Numbered from the stretch's first letter, positions 16,481-23,891 are shown. The stretch: 35,496 nucleotides of DNA from Parcubacteria group bacterium GW2011_GWC2_42_12 (GCA_000997945.1 LCCP01000006.1:1-35496), one strand, 5' to 3'. Made by a program: numbers and translations. The notes: generated by a model from the sequence alone, not told the origin.

Positions 16481-18718
16481 ATGGAAAAATATTATAATCA
16501 CAAAGAAGCCGAGCGGCGAATAAGTCTCATGTGGGAGAGGGATAATTATTTTACCCCTAAAATTGAACTTACAAAAAAACCGTTTTCTATTTTTCTTGTG
16601 CCACCAAATGCCAGCGGCGCCATGCATATTGGCAACGCGCTGATGATTGCTATTCAGGATATTTTGGCAAGATTTCATAGAGCCAAGGGCGATCCTACGC
16701 TGTGGATTCCTTCTACCGATCATGGCGGTTACGAAACGCAAGTTACTTTTGAGAGAGAGTTAGAGAAAGCCGGCAAAGATAAATGGAAGTTTGGCAGTAA
16801 AAAACTTTTCGAAGCGATCAAGCATTTTGTTGAAGGCAATAATGAGACAATAAAAGGCCAGATAAAAGACCTGGGGGCAAGCGTGGACTGGTCCCGGTTT
16901 CGCTATACCATGGATAGCGAATCTCTTCGGTCAATCAATAAAACATTTAATAAGCTGGTTGCTGACAATCTAATTTATCGCCGATCTTATATGGCCAGCT
17001 ATTGTCCTTCGTGCGCCACGATTTTAGCGGATATTGAACTTGAAGAATCAAAAGAGACGATCCCCCTTTATTTTATTAAATTCACATTTCAGAATAGCCA
17101 CAATTATTTAACCCTAGCGACTACGCGGCCGGAATTCCTTTTCGCCGCTACCCATGTATTAATTCATCCTGACGATAAGCGATATGCCCATTATATTGGC
17201 CAAGTGCTTATAAATCCCATAACAAACAAACCAGTTGAAATTATCGCCAGCAAAAGAAAGTTTGATCCAGAAAATAATAATCAATTTCTTTTCCCATTTT
17301 CTCCTTCCTATAAAAAATACGATTATGAATATACGCTGCGCAACTCAATACCTTCGCAAAATCTTTTGGATTGGGAAGGAAAGATGCTAGAGAGATACCC
17401 GGGATTAAAACCTAAAGAGGCACGGTTTAAAGAAGTTTCATTTTTAAAACAACAGGGGTATTTAGAAAAAATTGACGACTCGTATTTAGATTTTGTTTTT
17501 TTATGTAAACGAGGCCACGAAGTAGAAAGCGTAATAATGCTTACTTGGTTTTTAAAGATAGATGACGAAACAGTTCCTTTAAGAAAAAATGCTTTAACCG
17601 CCATTAAAAAAGAAGGTTTAGAAATTTTTCCCAGATGGCGAGAGAAAGGTTTAATGGAGTGGCTTAAAAAGATGACTGATTGGCCAATCGCTCGTCAGAA
17701 TGTCTGGGGCATAAAAATTCCGATTTGGTATGATATTTCCGATCCGTCAAAGTTCACGGTTTGGTTTATTGACAAAAAAGGAGACAAGCAGTGTGGAAAT
17801 TTAAAATTATTTTTAGATCAAGGCGTTACTACAGAAGAAGTGTCGACTGGCCTGGAACGGATTTATGCAGGCGAAAATGCGGTTTGGACATTAGAGCCAG
17901 AGGCGGGTAAATTATATTTACCTGAAACCGATACTTTTGATACTTGGTTTTCTTCCGGGCAATGGGGCACGATTGTTTTCGGCGACGAGCTGGCCGCTGA
18001 TTTCTCTTATTTTTACCCCAGCGATTCAATCGTTATAGGGTATGATTTGCTTCGTTTGTCCGTTTCCAGGAAGATATTTTTAAGCCAATATTTAACCGGC
18101 AAGCTGCCGTTTAGAATGGTTTATCTCCATCGTTTAATACAAGGCCAAGACGGACAAAAAATGTCAAAGAGTATCGGCAATGCTGTCTCGCTTGAATATT
18201 ATCTGGAAAAGTTTGGCGCTGATGCCACGCGGATGGCTTTAATATCATATACAACGCTTCGGGAAGACTTCACCCTGGCGGAAGAGCAACTGTTTTATTT
18301 CCAGGAATTTTCCCGCCGATTATGGAAGATTGGCTGCCTAATTGAAGCTTACCAGCTGAATTCACATGAATTATTTAAACCCCAAGATCTAGGTCATGAA
18401 GATAAATATTTGTTATCGGAGATTGATCATCTCGCGGTTTCCGTCAGCTCATCTTTGGAAAAATATTCATTCGCCTTCGCGCAAGAAAAATTATGCCATT
18501 TTCTTTTAAATCTGGAGAAATATGTAAAAATTACGCAAGCAAAGAAAAATACGGAAGTTTCTTCTTCGGTCTTGAGGTTTGTTTATAAAAAATATTTAAT
18601 TATCTCTCATCCTTTTATGCCTTTTATAACCGAGGAGCTATACGCGAATCTTTATAATTCAGTCCTGCCGCTAGCCGCTAACCCCTGGCCGGATAAAATG
18701 AATTATTTTGGAGAATAA
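16481..18718 (+). CDS. valS: Class I aminoacyl-tRNA synthetase, valyl type, short and divergent
   Basis: 745 residues. The HIGH motif is 'NASGAMHIGNALM' (~residues 43-54) and the KMSKS motif 'QKMSKSIGN' (~560). 'RFHRAKGDPTLWIPSTDHGG' and 'DTWFSSGQW' point to ValRS rather than IleRS. The CP1 editing domain starts with TTRPE (~214) and 'IHPDDKRY', but the usual 'GTG.VK.TPAHD' site is replaced by 'FLFPFSPSYKKYDYE', losing the HD pair. A zinc-like CPSC is present. The anticodon-binding domain is present, and the C-terminal coiled coil seen in many ~850-950-residue ValRS is absent. It should charge tRNA-Val in the cytoplasm. It lies at the end of the glycan cluster, so a specialised paralogue cannot be excluded. 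Confidence 0.82.
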   Translation: MEKYYNHKEAERRISLMWERDNYFTPKIELTKKPFSIFLVPPNASGAMHIGNALMIAIQDILARFHRAKGDPTLWIPSTDHGGYETQVTFERELEKAGKDKWKFGSKKLFEAIKHFVEGNNETIKGQIKDLGASVDWSRFRYTMDSESLRSINKTFNKLVADNLIYRRSYMASYCPSCATILADIELEESKETIPLYFIKFTFQNSHNYLTLATTRPEFLFAATHVLIHPDDKRYAHYIGQVLINPITNKPVEIIASKRKFDPENNNQFLFPFSPSYKKYDYEYTLRNSIPSQNLLDWEGKMLERYPGLKPKEARFKEVSFLKQQGYLEKIDDSYLDFVFLCKRGHEVESVIMLTWFLKIDDETVPLRKNALTAIKKEGLEIFPRWREKGLMEWLKKMTDWPIARQNVWGIKIPIWYDISDPSKFTVWFIDKKGDKQCGNLKLFLDQGVTTEEVSTGLERIYAGENAVWTLEPEAGKLYLPETDTFDTWFSSGQWGTIVFGDELAADFSYFYPSDSIVIGYDLLRLSVSRKIFLSQYLTGKLPFRMVYLHRLIQGQDGQKMSKSIGNAVSLEYYLEKFGADATRMALISYTTLREDFTLAEEQLFYFQEFSRRLWKIGCLIEAYQLNSHELFKPQDLGHEDKYLLSEIDHLAVSVSSSLEKYSFAFAQEKLCHFLLNLEKYVKITQAKKNTEVSSSVLRFVYKKYLIISHPFMPFITEELYANLYNSVLPLAANPWPDKMNYFGE

Positions 18719-18738: not shown

Positions 18739-18782
18739 CAAAAAGAAAAGAGCGGTTGATCATCATTCATCATGATGACCGC
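18739..18782 (-). terminator. Terminator of the cold-shock-domain gene
   Basis: Read on the minus strand: GCGGTCATCATG ... GATCAACCGC, then CTCTTTTCTTTTTG. Stem ends pair at 18752-18756 and 18778-18782, and the T-rich run is 18739-18750. A second compact hairpin (CCAACTCC/GGAGTTGG, 18799-18818) sits just after the stop codon. Confidence 0.7.
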
Positions 18783-18820
18783 CGCCCTGTTTGATTTGCC
18801 AACTCCCGAGGGAGTTGGGC

Positions 18821-19966
18821 TTAGAAAGGCCTAACTGCCGTAGCCTTGAGGTTCGTGCCGGATTCTTGCACGACCCGCACTGCCACCCTGGTCATGGGCG
18901 TGAGCATCGGAAAGACGCCCGGTTGCTTCCATAAGGGAGCCCCGTCCGCGCCTTCGATCTGCTTGAAATGAACGAAGGCAGATCTGCCGTCGTCCAGATA
19001 AACAACGCCGCAACCGATCGTGGCGTTGAACCAACAGATGTTGGCGCCAAACCATCCCTCTCGATGGCTTAATTCGGCCGGCAGTTCCTTAGCACTAGGT
19101 TGCCACCGAGCCACCACGCAACTGGATAGAGGAACCGAAGCCTCCAGGTTAATGGCAGCGGTCACAATTCCGACTGCCAGGTGACTGAAGTTCCCGAAGA
19201 AGCTACTCTTTGGGTAGGCGTTCTCCGGCATGAGAGGGACTACTGCCACTCTGTGGTGATCCGCCTCGACGGTCGCGAAACCCATACTTTGGGCCTTTTC
19301 CGCCGTCGTGCGAACCACTTGTCCCGCATACACCCGCTGGAAACCTAGCCAGAGCTGACCATGCCTGGTAGTTATGCTCACTTCCAGCACGACCATGGCG
19401 CCCTTCCGGCCATCACCCACGCCAGTGGTATCAAGGAATATCAGGTCCATATCCCGTCTTCCCTTGACCGTGGACGGCATTTGCCCGCCCTGACTATCGG
19501 CAATCCAGTTGATCGGGAAGGTGGCCGAAGCCATGTCGCCTTCGGTGCAGTCAGCAGGCGCGTTCATCTGCGAGCGGAACATCCTGATTCCCGGCGTCAG
19601 CCCCCGTTCGATAAAAAAGGTGATCGCGTCCGGTTGGCCAGTAAGTTCGATCGGTACCACCATGGTGAACTGGTCGAGGTGGATCTCACGGCCGAAACAG
19701 TGAGTGTCAATGCCGATAGTCACCCAACCGAACAGTGTGCTCTGCCATCGCACATTATGGGTGGCGGTATCCTTGCCGAACCTTTCCCGTTCAACTGGCG
19801 GCTCGGCGCTGGGCTGGCCTGGCTGTTCTTGAGCGGTATTGAGTACTCGCTCGAGCGCTCTCATCCCGTCCTCGACGAGTCCGGGGTGCGGATACCCTTG
19901 CTCCTGTCGAGTTTTGAGTTCCGCGAGAGAAAAGGGCCTGATAGGTGTTTGATTTTCTGTTTTCAT
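18821..19966 (-). CDS. Unknown ~300-residue domain with C-terminal degenerate cold-shock domain
   Basis: 381 residues. The last ~75 residues align by eye with cold-shock (OB-fold) proteins: 'WFNATIGCGVVYLDDG', 'AFVHFKQIEG', then a Lys/Pro-rich insertion, 'MTRVAVRV', and 'GTNLKATAVRPF' for the usual 'G.qA.nV'. The RNP2 motif (FVHF) is kept. RNP1 (KGFGFI) is altered to IGCGVV. The rest (~1-305) has no family I recognise: a charged N-terminal linker rich in Gln/Pro/Glu, then a beta-rich region (GFATVEADHHRVAVVPL). Codons are GC-richer than in flanking genes. A strong promoter lies 387-415 bp upstream with a structured leader, and a terminator follows. Nucleic-acid binding is an inference from the C-terminus only. 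Confidence 0.78.
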   Translation of the reverse strand: MKTENQTPIRPFSLAELKTRQEQGYPHPGLVEDGMRALERVLNTAQEQPGQPSAEPPVERERFGKDTATHNVRWQSTLFGWVTIGIDTHCFGREIHLDQFTMVVPIELTGQPDAITFFIERGLTPGIRMFRSQMNAPADCTEGDMASATFPINWIADSQGGQMPSTVKGRRDMDLIFLDTTGVGDGRKGAMVVLEVSITTRHGQLWLGFQRVYAGQVVRTTAEKAQSMGFATVEADHHRVAVVPLMPENAYPKSSFFGNFSHLAVGIVTAAINLEASVPLSSCVVARWQPSAKELPAELSHREGWFGANICWFNATIGCGVVYLDDGRSAFVHFKQIEGADGAPLWKQPGVFPMLTPMTRVAVRVVQESGTNLKATAVRPF

Positions 19967-19996
19967 GTTTGTTGTTTTTTCTTTCGTTTGTAGTAG

Positions 19997-20176
19997 TTAT
20001 TGGTCGACACCTGGCTTGCCATCACTCCGCCTCACCTTCACTGTGAAGGATATTGGTGTGAACTTCACTGTCAAGATTTGCGACACTGGGCATTCCCTGA
20101 ATTCTCCAATCCTCCACCCCTCCCCAAAACGGGCAAGAGTGGGCGTGAAGTCGTCAGGGATGACTGGCAGGGCCAT
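19997..20176 (-). CDS. Possible small protein, 59 residues
   Basis: Starts MALPVIPDDFTPTLARFGEG and ends DGKPGVDQ. It lies between the promoter at 20353-20381 and the cold-shock-domain gene, 30 bp upstream of the latter, and has the same GC-rich codon style. No Shine-Dalgarno sequence precedes it; its start overlaps the end of the 24-residue frame at 20154-20228. A TTG at 20200 could extend it. No family recognised; it may be chance. Confidence 0.35.
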   Translation of the reverse strand: MALPVIPDDFTPTLARFGEGWRIGEFRECPVSQILTVKFTPISFTVKVRRSDGKPGVDQ

Positions 20177-20228
20177 CAACTGACTGGACAAATCGTGCAA
20201 ATGACATTACATGATGACGGTTGTTCAT
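20154..20228 (-). CDS. Possible 24-residue leader peptide with strong Shine-Dalgarno
   Basis: MNNRHHVMSFARFVQSVDGP then ASHP and a TGA stop. AGGAGG lies 8 nt before its ATG, the best ribosome site in the window. The 3' half of that site is in a hairpin stem (20233-20253). It is the first frame of the transcript from the 20353-20381 promoter, so it may be a leader peptide that gates the downstream genes, or the start of a frameshifted gene. Confidence 0.4.
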   Translation of the reverse strand: MNNRHHVMSFARFVQSVDGPASHP

Positions 20229-20232
20229 TAGA

Positions 20233-20322
20233 AGCTCCTCCTTTCGTGGAGCTGGGTTTTGTTTCTGCTAAACGCTGAATTAAAAGTTACAAATTTTTAT
20301 AACCCTTAATTCAGCATTTAGC
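20233..20322 (-). promoter_or_regulatory. Structured 5' leader of the island operon
   Basis: Between the promoter and the first ATG there is a ~118-nt leader with two hairpins. One is a 17-bp stem with one mismatch (20306-20322 with 20267-20283; GCTAAATGCTGAATTAA on the minus strand). The other is a short AGCTCC/GGAGCT hairpin (20233-20253) that contains part of the AGGAGG ribosome site. Such a layout can gate translation. No known riboswitch signature was recognised. Confidence 0.5.
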
Positions 20323-20352
20323 GCTAAGTTTTAAAGAACAAATTGACTTATT

Positions 20353-20381
20353 ATAATAGCATATACTAGTAAAAATGTCAA
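20353..20381 (-). promoter_or_regulatory. Consensus sigma-70-type promoter, minus strand
   Basis: On the minus strand: TTGACA (20381-20376), 17-nt spacer, TATTAT (20358-20353) preceded by TGC, an extended -10. It would start transcription near 20346 toward the cold-shock-domain gene. Confidence 0.7.
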
Positions 20382-20449
20382 AGTAAAAAAGTCCATAATC
20401 ATTAATTTTGTTTAATATTAGCTATAATATAATAGAAATATATAATATT

Positions 20450-20504
20450 AAAAAAACCCCTGAAAAGAAGTTCACGAGATTTTATCGTTTACCTTTTTCA
20501 GGGG
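20450..20504 (-). terminator. Rho-independent terminator of the 76/54-residue gene pair
   Basis: On the minus strand: CCCCTGAAAA (20504-20495), loop, TTTTCAGGGG (20466-20457), then TTTTTT. It closes the short operon ending at 20530 and insulates it from the next minus-strand promoter. Confidence 0.9.
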
Positions 20505-20529
20505 TGATGCGACGCGGTTAGGCGCCGAC

Positions 20530-20694
20530 TTAGTTTGAAGGGAAAAATTCGGCGACCAGCCGGTAGAATTCGCGGACGGCCAGGGTCTCTGACAAGTTCC
20601 TTTCAGATACCATGTCTTCAGCAGAATCAGGGCTCTCGGGTTCGTTAGAGGGGAAAGCTTCAGCGACTAGTTCCTGGAGTGTTAATCGGTTCAT
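20530..20694 (-). CDS. Small protein, 54 residues, unknown
   Basis: Starts MNRLTLQELVAEAFPSNE and ends FYRLVAEFFPSN. An internal repeat is visible: LVAEAFPSN near the start and LVAEFFPSN at the very end, separated by an acidic stretch (ESPDSAEDMVSERN). The ATG overlaps the upstream gene's TGA as ATGA (20694-20691), the arrangement of translational coupling; this decides the start over the longer frame beginning at 20721. A terminator follows. No family recognised. The acidic, amphipathic look with a paired partner is compatible with many small two-gene systems but proves none. Confidence 0.6.
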   Translation of the reverse strand: MNRLTLQELVAEAFPSNEPESPDSAEDMVSERNLSETLAVREFYRLVAEFFPSN

Positions 20695-20921
20695 GTTTTC
20701 TGTTTGAACATGAATTGCCATGCTCTGGTTTTCCGCGGACCAGACATTGGTTTTCCGACTTTTTGAACTCGCACCGGAAAAGAAGTATGAACGAAATCCT
20801 CTGGGCTTAAGTTCTCCTTAAACTCCGGGTAAAACATCATAGCCAGCTCCTCTGGTTGCAAGAACTGCTCGACCGTTGATCGGTGTCCGTTCGTAACCAT
20901 TATCCTAGGTACTCTTGCCAT
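20691..20921 (-). CDS. Small basic protein, 76 residues, unknown
   Basis: Starts MARVPRIMVTNGHRSTVEQF; its C-terminal third is basic (RVQKVGKPMSGPRKTRAW). The ATG at 20921 is chosen over an earlier in-frame start (20981) because AAGGAG lies 8-9 nt before it (GGAAAGGAGAAACTTAAT). The following 54-residue gene overlaps its stop by ATGA, so the two form one operon. GC content and ribosome site differ from the native genes around it. No family recognised. Confidence 0.65.
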   Translation of the reverse strand: MARVPRIMVTNGHRSTVEQFLQPEELAMMFYPEFKENLSPEDFVHTSFPVRVQKVGKPMSGPRKTRAWQFMFKQKT

Positions 20922-20982
20922 ATTAAGTTTCTCCTTTCCGGAAACATTTTTTTGGTTTGATTGACAAATCAATAATATCATT

Positions 20983-20988
20983 ATTATA
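20983..20988 (-). promoter_or_regulatory. Tentative -10 box of the 76/54-residue operon
   Basis: TATAAT on the minus strand, ~60 nt before the ATG at 20921. No convincing -35 box at the right spacing. Confidence 0.35.
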
Positions 20989-21076
20989 CAGAAAATGCCA
21001 TAACAAAAATTTACTTTTATAATTAAATAGTTAAGGCGGTTTTAAGTATTAGTCTGTAAGTTTTCATATTTTCTAG

Positions 21077-21137
21077 TTTTTGTGTTATAATAATGTTGAC
21101 CCTGTTAAATGTTTATCACTAAATAAATTTAACAGGG
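21077..21137 (+). promoter_or_regulatory. Extended -10 promoter and leader hairpin of the DUF4012 gene
   Basis: TTTTTGTGTTATAATAA: TATAAT at 21086-21091 with an extended TGT. It shares a 16-nt string with the protease promoter. Just downstream is a perfect 11-bp inverted repeat, CCCTGTTAAAT (21100-21110) and ATTTAACAGGG (21127-21137), at the 5' end of the mRNA; it could be an RNA hairpin or a repressor operator. Confidence 0.6.
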
Positions 21138-21173
21138 TAAATAAGTTTGGAAAAATTTTGTGTTAGAAAACAA

Positions 21174-23891
21174 ATGGGCTTAAATAAATTTAACAATTTA
21201 AAAATTAAACCGGGCGCTGAATCGTCCCGTTTTGTGATTGATTTAAAACAAGAACTGGCGGCTGCGGAGACAAAAGGAATAACCAGCCAGCAGAATTTAT
21301 CGCTTGAATTAAAATTGGAAAAATTAGCCGAGCTTGATTATGGCCAGATTTTAAAGCAAGGCAGGGAAAATACCAAGAAGAATTTTACGGCTTTTATTGA
21401 TTACGCGAAAGAATTGGGCGCGGGCATGACAAAAAATAAGCGACCTAAAAATAACCAACCCGGGGCCTGGTTAATGCCAAATTCCCCGGTCGGAAAAATC
21501 TGGCTTAAGCTAGATCGGCTAGCTTTTGTTGTATTAATTAAATTGGTCTATATAATTTTAAAGCAAGCTGTAATTTTAATCTGTCAAGCTTGCTATTGGG
21601 TGGGCTGGGTGATAATTTTTAGTTTGCGTTTGGTTTATTTTTTACTACTCGAGACAATGAGACCGCTAGCCAGAGCCATGAATTTTTTAGTTAGCCGATT
21701 CAGGCCGATCATAATTAAGGGTTTAAAGATTTTTTCGGGCGTTTTTCAGATGATGAGATCAGTGATTGCGGGAATATTACTAAAGAGGATTATCGTTAGG
21801 GACAGAGATTGCTTCGTCCCCCGGGTCAAGCCCGGGGCTAAAGGCGCTCCTCGCAATGACAAACGGGTGGTTGGCTATTTAAGGCCGGTTCTGGTCTTCG
21901 CCGGAGTTCTTTTAATCATGATTTTACCGGTTAAGGCCTGGACATTCTATAAAACGCTGGATAGCGCTCGAGGCAAAGTTTTAGGCGCGAGCGAAAGCGC
22001 CATGAATAATTTAATTTCCGGCGGCCTTAACGCGGCTAATCTGGACTTTAACGGAGCCGGCAAAAGTTTTGCAGAGGCCAGCAGTAATTTTTTAATTGCC
22101 GAGAATCAGCTTAAGGAAATTAACGGTTTGCTCTTTACCTTAGCCGCCGCCGTGCCGGATAAGAATCTGCGACTGGCCGCGGCCAGTAAGCATTTAGTTA
22201 GAGCCGGCGAGTTAAGCGCGGCCGCGGGTAAAGATTTAAGCTTGGCCATTGCCGCCTTATTTAATTATCAGGCCAGTAGCAGTAAGGGGATTTTATTAAA
22301 TTTAACCGTTTACGGCCATCGCGCCATCGTAGATTTAACCGCTCTGGGTCAGGAACTGGATCAGATCAATAGCGAGGTATTGCCCGAGGATTATCAAACA
22401 AAGTTTATTTTATTAAAGCAAAAGATCGGCCAACTCAGCCGCTGGCTAAGCGAATTCATCGGTTTGGCCGATCAACTGGAGAGTTTTCTGGGCGGCGGCG
22501 CGGCCAAACGCTATCTATTGGTTTTTCAAAATAATTCCGAGCTTCGAGCCTCGGGCGGCTTTATCGGCAGTTTCGCCTTAATAGATGTTTTAAACGGCCG
22601 GATAAAGAAAATTGAAGCGCCCGGCGGCGGCAGCTATGATACTGATGCCGGCCTGTTAAAGAAAATAAAATCGCCGGAGCCGCTCCGCTTAATTAGGCCG
22701 GACTGGCATTTTTGGGACGCTAACTGGTGGCCTGATTGGCCAACTTCGGCGCGCAAATTAGCCTGGTTTTATGCCAATAGCGACGGTTCAACCGTGGACG
22801 GGGTAATCGGCTTGACGCCGACCGTCATGGAAGAAATTTTAAGGATCATCGGTCCGATAGATATGAAAGATAAATATGGCGTGATTATTGACGCGGATAA
22901 TTTCTGGCGCGTGACTCAGGAATTCGCCGAGCAGAAGCCCAATGTCACTAAGGAGCCGAAGAAAATCATCGGCGATTTAATGAATAAAATTATTGCCGAA
23001 TTGCCTGAGCGCTTAAATAAAGATAATTTACTGCCCCTGCTTAAAGCGATTGAAGGTTTGCTCACGGATAAAAATATTTTATTTTATTTTACCGATAATA
23101 AATTGCAGGCCGAGGTAAGACGGCTGGGCTGGATCGGAGAAATTAAAACCACGGCCGGTGATTACTTAAGCGTGATCAATACTAATATCGCCGGCGGGAA
23201 AAGCGACCGCCGCATCAGGCAGGAAATTATTCATCGGGCCGAAGTCCAGCCGGATGGCACAATTATTGATAATTTAACCATTAGGCGAACCCATGAAGGA
23301 ATAAAGCGCGAGCCATTCTCCGGCGTCAGGAATGTTGATTGGCTAAGAATTTATGTGCCCTTGGGCTCGGAATTGATTGAAGCTAGCGGCTTTAAACCGG
23401 TGGATAAAATATTTTTTAAAGAGGCCGAAGCGGATTGGCAAAACGACCCTGATCTGGCGCGCGGCGAGGCCTTAGCGCTAACTGACGACTTAAGCGGCAC
23501 GAAAATTTATAATGAACTAGATAAGACCGTTTTCGCTAATTGGTCGCAAGTGGATCCGGGTCAAACCATTGCCATAAATATTAAATATCAATTACCTTTT
23601 AAGCTAATTGATAAAAAACCCAGTTTAGCTCAAAGCTCCTTGGATAATTTGCTAGCTAAAGCTAACGCCATGATTAATCCCGATCAGAAAGAACTTTATT
23701 CTTATTCCTTGCTCGCGCAAAAACAACCGGGCATGAATTCATCTACCTTCCAGAGCGAATTAAAATTAAGCGATAATTTTAAAATAATTTGGCAATATCC
23801 GACCGGTTTAACCGTTAATTTAGACGGCTGGTTCAGAAAAGAAATTTTTGATCAGGATAAACTGATGGCCGTAATGGTGGAGGAGAAGTAA
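21174..23891 (+). CDS. DUF4012 domain membrane protein
   Basis: 905 residues from ATG 21174; a TTG at 21147 in the same frame is possible. A ~100-residue N-terminal cytoplasmic part is followed by two close hydrophobic helices (~residues 115-170) and a third (~240-262, VLVFAGVLLIMILP). The DUF4012 core is in the middle: 'YLLVFQNNSELRASGGFIGSFAL', 'GLTPTVMEEILRIIGPI', 'DADNFWRV'. This family is frequent in Patescibacteria and Actinobacteria near glycan genes; its function is not established. At ~residues 210-230 a translated repeat (DCFVPRVKPGAKGAPRND) is inserted between helices. Likely an envelope protein acting with the glycan machinery (inference). Confidence 0.88.
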   Translation: MGLNKFNNLKIKPGAESSRFVIDLKQELAAAETKGITSQQNLSLELKLEKLAELDYGQILKQGRENTKKNFTAFIDYAKELGAGMTKNKRPKNNQPGAWLMPNSPVGKIWLKLDRLAFVVLIKLVYIILKQAVILICQACYWVGWVIIFSLRLVYFLLLETMRPLARAMNFLVSRFRPIIIKGLKIFSGVFQMMRSVIAGILLKRIIVRDRDCFVPRVKPGAKGAPRNDKRVVGYLRPVLVFAGVLLIMILPVKAWTFYKTLDSARGKVLGASESAMNNLISGGLNAANLDFNGAGKSFAEASSNFLIAENQLKEINGLLFTLAAAVPDKNLRLAAASKHLVRAGELSAAAGKDLSLAIAALFNYQASSSKGILLNLTVYGHRAIVDLTALGQELDQINSEVLPEDYQTKFILLKQKIGQLSRWLSEFIGLADQLESFLGGGAAKRYLLVFQNNSELRASGGFIGSFALIDVLNGRIKKIEAPGGGSYDTDAGLLKKIKSPEPLRLIRPDWHFWDANWWPDWPTSARKLAWFYANSDGSTVDGVIGLTPTVMEEILRIIGPIDMKDKYGVIIDADNFWRVTQEFAEQKPNVTKEPKKIIGDLMNKIIAELPERLNKDNLLPLLKAIEGLLTDKNILFYFTDNKLQAEVRRLGWIGEIKTTAGDYLSVINTNIAGGKSDRRIRQEIIHRAEVQPDGTIIDNLTIRRTHEGIKREPFSGVRNVDWLRIYVPLGSELIEASGFKPVDKIFFKEAEADWQNDPDLARGEALALTDDLSGTKIYNELDKTVFANWSQVDPGQTIAINIKYQLPFKLIDKKPSLAQSSLDNLLAKANAMINPDQKELYSYSLLAQKQPGMNSSTFQSELKLSDNFKIIWQYPTGLTVNLDGWFRKEIFDQDKLMAVMVEEK
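21805..21861. repeat. Family-1 half element translated inside the DUF4012 gene
   Basis: GAGATTGCTTCGTC at the left, a CCCCGGGTCAAGCCCGGGG hairpin in the middle and CTCCTCGCAATGACA at the right. It corresponds to the right half of copies A-C and stays in frame with the host gene. Confidence 0.8.

Follow-up and report, generated by a model that had tools for sequence, protein, structure and literature searches.

Are two compact gene units that run against both of their neighbours a wholly foreign insertion, or does a part of them belong to the host lineage? We addressed this question in a window of 35,496 nucleotides (the whole stretch of DNA that was analysed, LCCP01000006.1:1-35496 of assembly GCA_000997945.1, Parcubacteria group bacterium GW2011_GWC2_42_12), which is contig C6 of a genome of 1.03 Mb in 48 contigs, here G000, whose closest named relatives are metagenome-assembled genomes of Candidatus Falkowbacteria. 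A ValRS-type gene (16481-18718, plus strand) and a DUF4012 gene (start at about 21147 or 21177, end at 23891, plus strand) flank an island that the original prediction had described as a compact acquired module of opposite-strand genes. Minus-strand open reading frames (ORFs) do lie between the two genes, and they fall into two units:

18739-20381, minus strand: unit 1, with promoter, leader, small ORFs, ORF A and terminator.
20450-20921, minus strand: unit 2, with ORF D, ORF C and terminator.

We consider it moderately probable that unit 1, known here from sequence alone, consists of accessory and probably horizontally acquired cargo (a 24-aa leader ORF, ORF B, a 19-aa ORF and ORF A) behind a conserved leader of the host lineage. 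Regarding this leader, the predicted TTGACA-17-TATTAT promoter was located at 20381-20353, and it is followed by a boxA-like motif and a hairpin that the earlier reading had overlooked:

20353-20381, minus strand: sigma70-type promoter TTGACA-17-TATTAT with extended -10 (TATGCTATTATAAT), 11 of 12 consensus bases, kept in G003 and in window-type leaders.
20329-20339, minus strand: boxA-like motif GTTCTTTAAAA, near the predicted transcript 5' end.
20267-20322, minus strand: leader hairpin of 26 bp with a 4-nt loop; leader fold z -8.5, covariation in six window-type leaders.
20257-20455, minus strand: block homologous to G003, with promoter, boxA-like motif, hairpin and an upstream AT-rich element.

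At the same junction of the sister genome G003, we found a leader with 77% identity to that of the window over 206 bp. This homology extends from the hairpin foot (20257) to the unit 2 terminator and no further, and the island ORFs of the two genomes showed no similarity by tblastn. The leader has diverged about as much as the region upstream of the DUF4012 gene (75% identity), and the DUF4012 proteins themselves are 71% identical. An assembly artefact was ruled out, because a homologous leader occupies the identical junction in the genome of another species. By these comparisons, the unit 1 leader is not foreign, and the cargo changed while the leader stayed.

One could argue that nothing was replaced, and that the islands of the window and of G003 are one ancestral operon changed beyond recognition. 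Their position and orientation are the same, the leader is homologous and an OB-like family present at this junction in other genomes does evolve fast. However, the operons differ in layout and the ORFs in length, no DNA or protein similarity is left beside an adjacent leader that retains 77%, unit 2 is missing in G003 and other close relatives are empty at this site. We regard such divergence in place as improbable.

Leaders of this kind also occur away from the junction. In several genomes, a recurrent 5' layout precedes island-type genes, with a promoter, a boxA-like G(C/T)TCTTTAA or GTACCTTTAAA, a long hairpin, an A/C-rich linker, a Shine-Dalgarno (SD) sequence and the start codon. Elsewhere in G000 there are one window-type leader and three leaders with a second type of hairpin (type I). 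We built model R2 from the window and G003 leaders, and model R1 from the three other G000 leaders. R2 detected window-type copies in G003 C17 (111 bits), G003 C9 (77), G002 C12 (64) and G000 C1:38591 (45), together with weaker ones elsewhere, with matches of 45 bits or less resting on context. The genes behind these four copies are G+C-rich and encode, in the same order, proteins of 179, 190, 81 plus 81, and 357 aa. Beyond G000, R1 gave matches in G003, G012, G011, G002 and G001, mostly ahead of different G+C-rich orphan ORFs. The type I set (R1/R3) comprises 12 leaders in five genomes, among them the three from G000 on which R1 was built, and one further leader in G057, a genome of another family; across 111 genomes of the order, model R3 matched chiefly in genera g1 and g5, and in G057. 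Homologous genes were found behind two pairs of leaders (G000 C1 with G011 C29, and G000 C9 with G001 C61). Seven of eight cargo proteins had no family match in Pfam, and the other one is ParB-like. We found no description of the leader in the open-access literature. The new element here is this dispersed, covarying leader family, apparently undescribed before. Since the leader is common to G003 and to the dispersed family, describing the island simply as a self-contained foreign unit would be wrong.

The hairpins behave as conserved structures. In the 12 type I leaders, 92% of the cells were paired and 14 of 23 pairs had changed on both sides; no shuffle out of 500 scored as high, and slid controls reached at most 49% paired. 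The six window-type leaders gave 93.5% paired cells and compensatory changes in 16 of 26 pairs, with shuffles as high again in 0 of 500 and slid controls far lower, values to be read with the caveats that members found through a structure model lean to pairing and that the sequences are related. Non-Watson-Crick oppositions in the sense strand comprised 30 G-U and 4 A-C, counted on a fold that favours pairing, and the sense strand outscored the antisense strand where both were matched. Both this excess of G-U and the higher score of the sense strand suggest that the hairpin forms in RNA and not in DNA. Rfam held no matching family, and the window hairpin gave only chance-level miRNA-like hits, far below the gathering scores.

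These data bear on the possibility that the hairpin works as folded DNA, similar to attI or attC, at which a recombinase swaps cargo. The window and G003 sequences part at the hairpin foot with different cargo beyond it, and palindromic leaders are dispersed with varied cargo, both as such an exchange would have it. The G-U bias and the sense score nevertheless fit RNA, the leader homology takes in the promoter, no integrase was evident when the window ORFs were read (no genome-wide integrase profile search was made), and no end repeats are present at the locus, where no direct repeat or target duplication bordering the island was convincing. We judge this exchange very improbable.

The main rival to our reading takes the hairpin as RNA too: the leader would be a cis-regulatory RNA through which one trans-acting protein, temperature or a ligand switches all accessory genes together, and not a constitutive booster. 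Unrelated cargo behind homologous leaders, conserved stem positions and covariation speak for it, as do the placement of the hairpin where control of translation is possible and the capacity of the boxA-like motif to pair with the linker after the hairpin. Against it, the leader RNA fold leaves the SD outside the long hairpin, we found no alternative terminator or strong fold sequestering the SD, the loop is short and variable, unlike that of most riboswitches, and Rfam gave no match. A regulon of this type seems unlikely, though it deserves serious consideration. In the minimum-energy fold, the boxA-like UUUGUUCU (at about 20335-20342, minus strand) pairs with AGAAACAAA (at about 20259-20266, minus strand) directly 3' of the hairpin; a similar complementarity between boxA and linker seems to be present in some other leaders, and it might gate boxA.

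In most Falkowbacteria, a glycosyltransferase gene and the DUF4012 gene stand next to each other, and among about 55 loci that span the junction only 7 have a gap larger than 0.8 kb. The original prediction had suggested looking for relatives without the island: at this junction, G001 and G002, of the same genus, are empty, and G003, G006, G007, G008 and G011 carry different genes, mostly G+C-rich, SD-led orphans. Outside the family of the window, orphans of this kind fill it in L136, L140, L141 and L151, the L141 gene not being G+C-rich. The glycosyltransferase/DUF4012 junction is an insertion hotspot.

Other genes have been observed at this junction. The ValRS-type paralogue of the window (16481-18718, 745 aa) is itself inserted there; it is 79% identical to a copy after the glycosyltransferase gene in G012 and absent at that position in G001-G003, and a second ValRS-like gene in G000 C47 has 34% identity. 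A fast-evolving family, OB-like by eye only, is found at the junction in six relatives (L132/L067, L075, L140, L141, L142 and L136), some members of which have an N-terminal segment resembling a zinc ribbon. ORF A was considered as a member of this family and rejected, as the HMM search does not recover it.

The unit 1 genes differ from those of the host in composition and in how they start. They are arranged, together with their signals, as follows:

20237-20242, minus strand: unit 1 Shine-Dalgarno sequence AGGAGG, duplex -10.9 kcal/mol.
20154-20228, minus strand: 24-aa leader ORF, first start downstream of the SD, putatively coding.
19997-20176, minus strand: ORF B, 59 aa, overlapping the leader ORF, without relatives.
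19963-20022, minus strand: 19-aa ORF whose stop overlaps the ORF A start (ATGA), putatively coding.
18821-19966, minus strand: ORF A, 381 aa, G+C 57.5%, an orphan with a cold-shock-like stretch at residues 309-341.
18944-19042, minus strand: cold-shock-like part of ORF A, WFNATIGCGVVYLDDGRSAFVHFKQIE; score for Pfam CSD 16.9 bits (cut-off 27), PDB cold-shock proteins E 0.013.
18739-18788, minus strand: unit 1 intrinsic terminator, fold -27.9 kcal/mol, z -5.1.

For comparison with the host we used 20 sampled stretches (365,994 bases) and the window, 401,490 bases in total. The G+C content at synonymous third codon positions (GC3s) of ORF A is 0.64, and the mean of host genes is 0.43 with a standard deviation of 0.07. 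ORF A is not a chance ORF, because none of 3000 Markov sequences reached a stop-free run of its length. In codon adaptation, none of ORFs A to D exceeds the 0.7th percentile of host genes, so their codon usage is not host-like; nor do all close relatives carry the island. The claim that the island is richer in G+C clearly holds for unit 1 alone, with ORF A at 57.5%: unit 2 is only slightly richer, with 46-48% compared to 41.7% in the sampled genome, and positions 20001-21000 as a whole have 42%. Likewise, the clear SD sites that had been described exist for the first cistron of each unit, while ORF A and ORF C, which start in ATGA overlaps with the 19-codon ORF and with ORF D, respectively, have none. 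Native genes do mostly lack SD sites, with 6% of 269 host genes (at least 150 aa) reaching -6 kcal/mol at their first start. The anti-SD is intact in the 16S genes of five relatives (GGATCACCTCCTTT; 3' end with CCTCC), and SD sites should therefore be usable; the 16S of G000 itself is missing from the assembly.

No relatives of ORF A were detected in 60 related genomes, nor in the viral, phage, plasmid and GTDB genome collections searched, and no island ORF exceeded the cut-off in protein family, defence and PDB searches. This agrees with the earlier statement that no family is recognisable apart from a degenerate cold-shock domain, the match to which is below threshold. A phage or plasmid origin of the island was rejected after finding no matches in those collections. 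A related idea is that each promoter/terminator unit is of viral origin, as an autonomous gene unit of the phage moron type. The compact units with their own promoter, SD and terminator and their odd composition would suit this origin; yet searches of phages, IMG/VR and PHROGs gave no relatives, the viral contigs searched do not contain the leader pattern, and the leader is common to the sister genome at the same locus. We consider this origin very improbable. Acquired, or at least lineage-specific, coding cargo at the island is supported. The term 'acquired' suits the cargo, given the empty junction in G001 and G002, the other contents elsewhere and the lack of relatives of ORF A; 'compact acquired module' does not suit the leader, with its 77% identity in G003 and its dispersed family.

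What could such a leader do for its cargo? The window motif GTTCTTTAAAA matches exactly the gamma-proteobacterial boxA consensus GYTCTTTAANA, and other leaders vary; boxA leaders, recognised by NusB/NusE, belong to rRNA operons and to mRNAs such as suhB (PMC5725501). A similar motif with similar spacing is found before rnpB, a stable RNA gene, in G000 and two other genomes, which would suit a leader of the stable-RNA type. We also observed a motif, TTTTGYTTAATNTTAGC, at 20406-20422 of the window and in G000 C1, C2, C7 and C10 (five exact copies, often upstream of promoters), and a similar element upstream of rnpB; possibly, it is an upstream promoter element. Several copies are located ahead of ordinary genes of the host; for this reason, and given its resemblance to such a promoter element, we discarded it as an insertion mark.

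From these parts we infer that the leader would provide strong, processive transcription and a protected mRNA 5' end, perhaps with boxA antitermination. The strong extended -10 promoter would drive unit 1 transcription, and boxA with Nus factors would keep RNA polymerase processive across G+C-rich, codon-poor cargo. The hairpin of 23-26 bp would shield the 5' end and leave the SD exposed beyond the A/C-rich linker, and the stop-start overlaps would pass ribosomes on to ORF A, a candidate nucleic-acid binder that may act via its cold-shock-like segment. At this junction, the leader would have persisted and the genes behind it would have been replaced. As a tentative extension, and an unlikely one, the dispersed promoter-boxA-hairpin leader could serve Falkowbacteria as a standard place where foreign genes dock and are expressed, with orphans repeatedly attached or exchanged behind its copies in a cassette-like economy without a classical integron.

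Several observations, besides the dependence of the lower R2 matches on context, weigh against our reading. The type I leader of G012 precedes an AT-rich regulator gene and not a G+C-rich orphan, and no clear orphan ORF follows the leader in G003 C41. In five 16S leaders of relatives, a clear boxA of this form is missing. ORF A stays below the Pfam gathering score for PF00313, and modelling its structure from the single sequence gave nothing informative (pLDDT 33). Moreover, a long hairpin was found before 13 of 228 ordinary genes, compared to 3 of 10 genes with high G+C content at third codon positions (GC3; p 0.02 in a simple whole-sample test). We discarded any long hairpin as a marker of high-GC3 genes, the association being weak. 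As hairpins are common, the hairpin alone is not diagnostic, and only promoter, boxA and hairpin combined are specific.

One copy of the leader bears on mobility. The leader-bearing gene in G000 C1 (605-1237, minus strand, in L106, which is C1:1-1404) has a type I leader and serves as target of a diversity-generating retroelement. Two homologous elements, both with template repeats, were identified in L278 (G011 C29) and L277 (G057 C30), and the G057 element has a reverse transcriptase (RVT_1, E 6.8e-27). Differences between variable and template repeats fall at template adenines in 21 of 21 cases in G057 and 17 of 20 in G000. The G011 and G057 elements share 86% DNA identity over 1.7 kb, with proteins 88% identical, though they come from different families. 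For comparison, the core protein Tgt of G000 has 59% identity to that of G057, and the search for Tgt gave no hit in G011. Because the first pair is 86-88% identical and Tgt only 59%, leader and gene apparently moved together between families, in this single case. In the retroelement, the leader would have travelled with its gene; the window has the other pattern, a kept leader with changed cargo. The G011 retroelement lies shortly downstream of a 5S rRNA gene, and that of G057 adjoins an IS30-like transposase gene, named by eye.

Unit 2 consists of the following features:

20691-20921, minus strand: ORF D, 76 aa, with SD AAAGGAG at 20931-20937 (-8.0 kcal/mol), an orphan.
20530-20694, minus strand: ORF C, 54 aa, in ATGA overlap with ORF D.
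20450-20505, minus strand: unit 2 intrinsic terminator, fold -23.1 kcal/mol, z -5.1.

Each unit thus ends in a terminator of its own, as predicted, and both fold well. Searches for relatives of ORF D, including phage and viral ones, found none. The layout of the terminator resembles that of the terminator of the G003 island. Unit 2 may be a separate two-gene insert without a leader of the unit 1 type. The count of four proteins proved too low: the island has more than four frames, namely the 24-aa leader ORF, B (59 aa), the 19-aa ORF, A (381 aa), D (76 aa) and C (54 aa), of which the shortest are only putatively coding.

Beyond the island, we observed a palindrome, ACCCTGTTAAAT...ATTTAACAGGGT, at 21096-21141 of the window, upstream of the DUF4012 gene; a 12-mer of it, in which one position is A or G, has 7 copies in 401 kb of G000 and is rare in more distant relatives. 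Two genes named by eye, a pyrB-like gene (aspartate carbamoyltransferase; L109 6275-7243), which has an SD, and a purH-like gene (L112 1848-2474), are G+C-rich (53-57%) and could be acquired metabolic genes.

The small genomes of Patescibacteria abound in unrecognised genes, and a common leader RNA makes one class of accessory genes identifiable from the sequence alone. The leader suggests how an AT-rich host in which SD sites are seldom used can express foreign, G+C-rich genes, and the class it marks includes hypervariable retroelement targets. Together, boxA and hairpin offer a testable handle on gene expression in an almost uncultured bacterial branch.

Several known systems resemble parts of this arrangement. 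The ompA mRNA has a stabilising hairpin in its 5' untranslated region; the leader also has a stable stem-loop near the 5' end with the SD outside, but here one homologous leader is common to many unrelated genes, and the boxA-like motif and promoter are conserved together with it. Integron gene cassettes combine a conserved promoter region, variable orphan cargo and a palindromic element at the border, all of which have a counterpart here. Unlike in integrons, no integrase was seen by reading the window ORFs, nothing matched an attC-like consensus, the hairpin is RNA-like and the copies are dispersed and not arrayed. Phage morons are compact, foreign-looking units with their own promoter and terminator; the window units likewise lie between host genes, but on a bacterial chromosome, with no viral relatives and a leader inherited within the host lineage. 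As for diversity-generating retroelements, one leader-bearing G000 gene (C1) is a genuine target, whereas the window island has neither reverse transcriptase nor template repeat. Finally, boxA leaders (PMC5725501) have GYTCTTTAANA near the transcript 5' end, as does the window with an exact copy, and a similar motif lies before rnpB in G000 and related genomes; Nus binding is putative here, the rrn leaders of the relatives are without a clear copy, and the window leader adds a long covarying hairpin and many dispersed copies before unrelated orphans.

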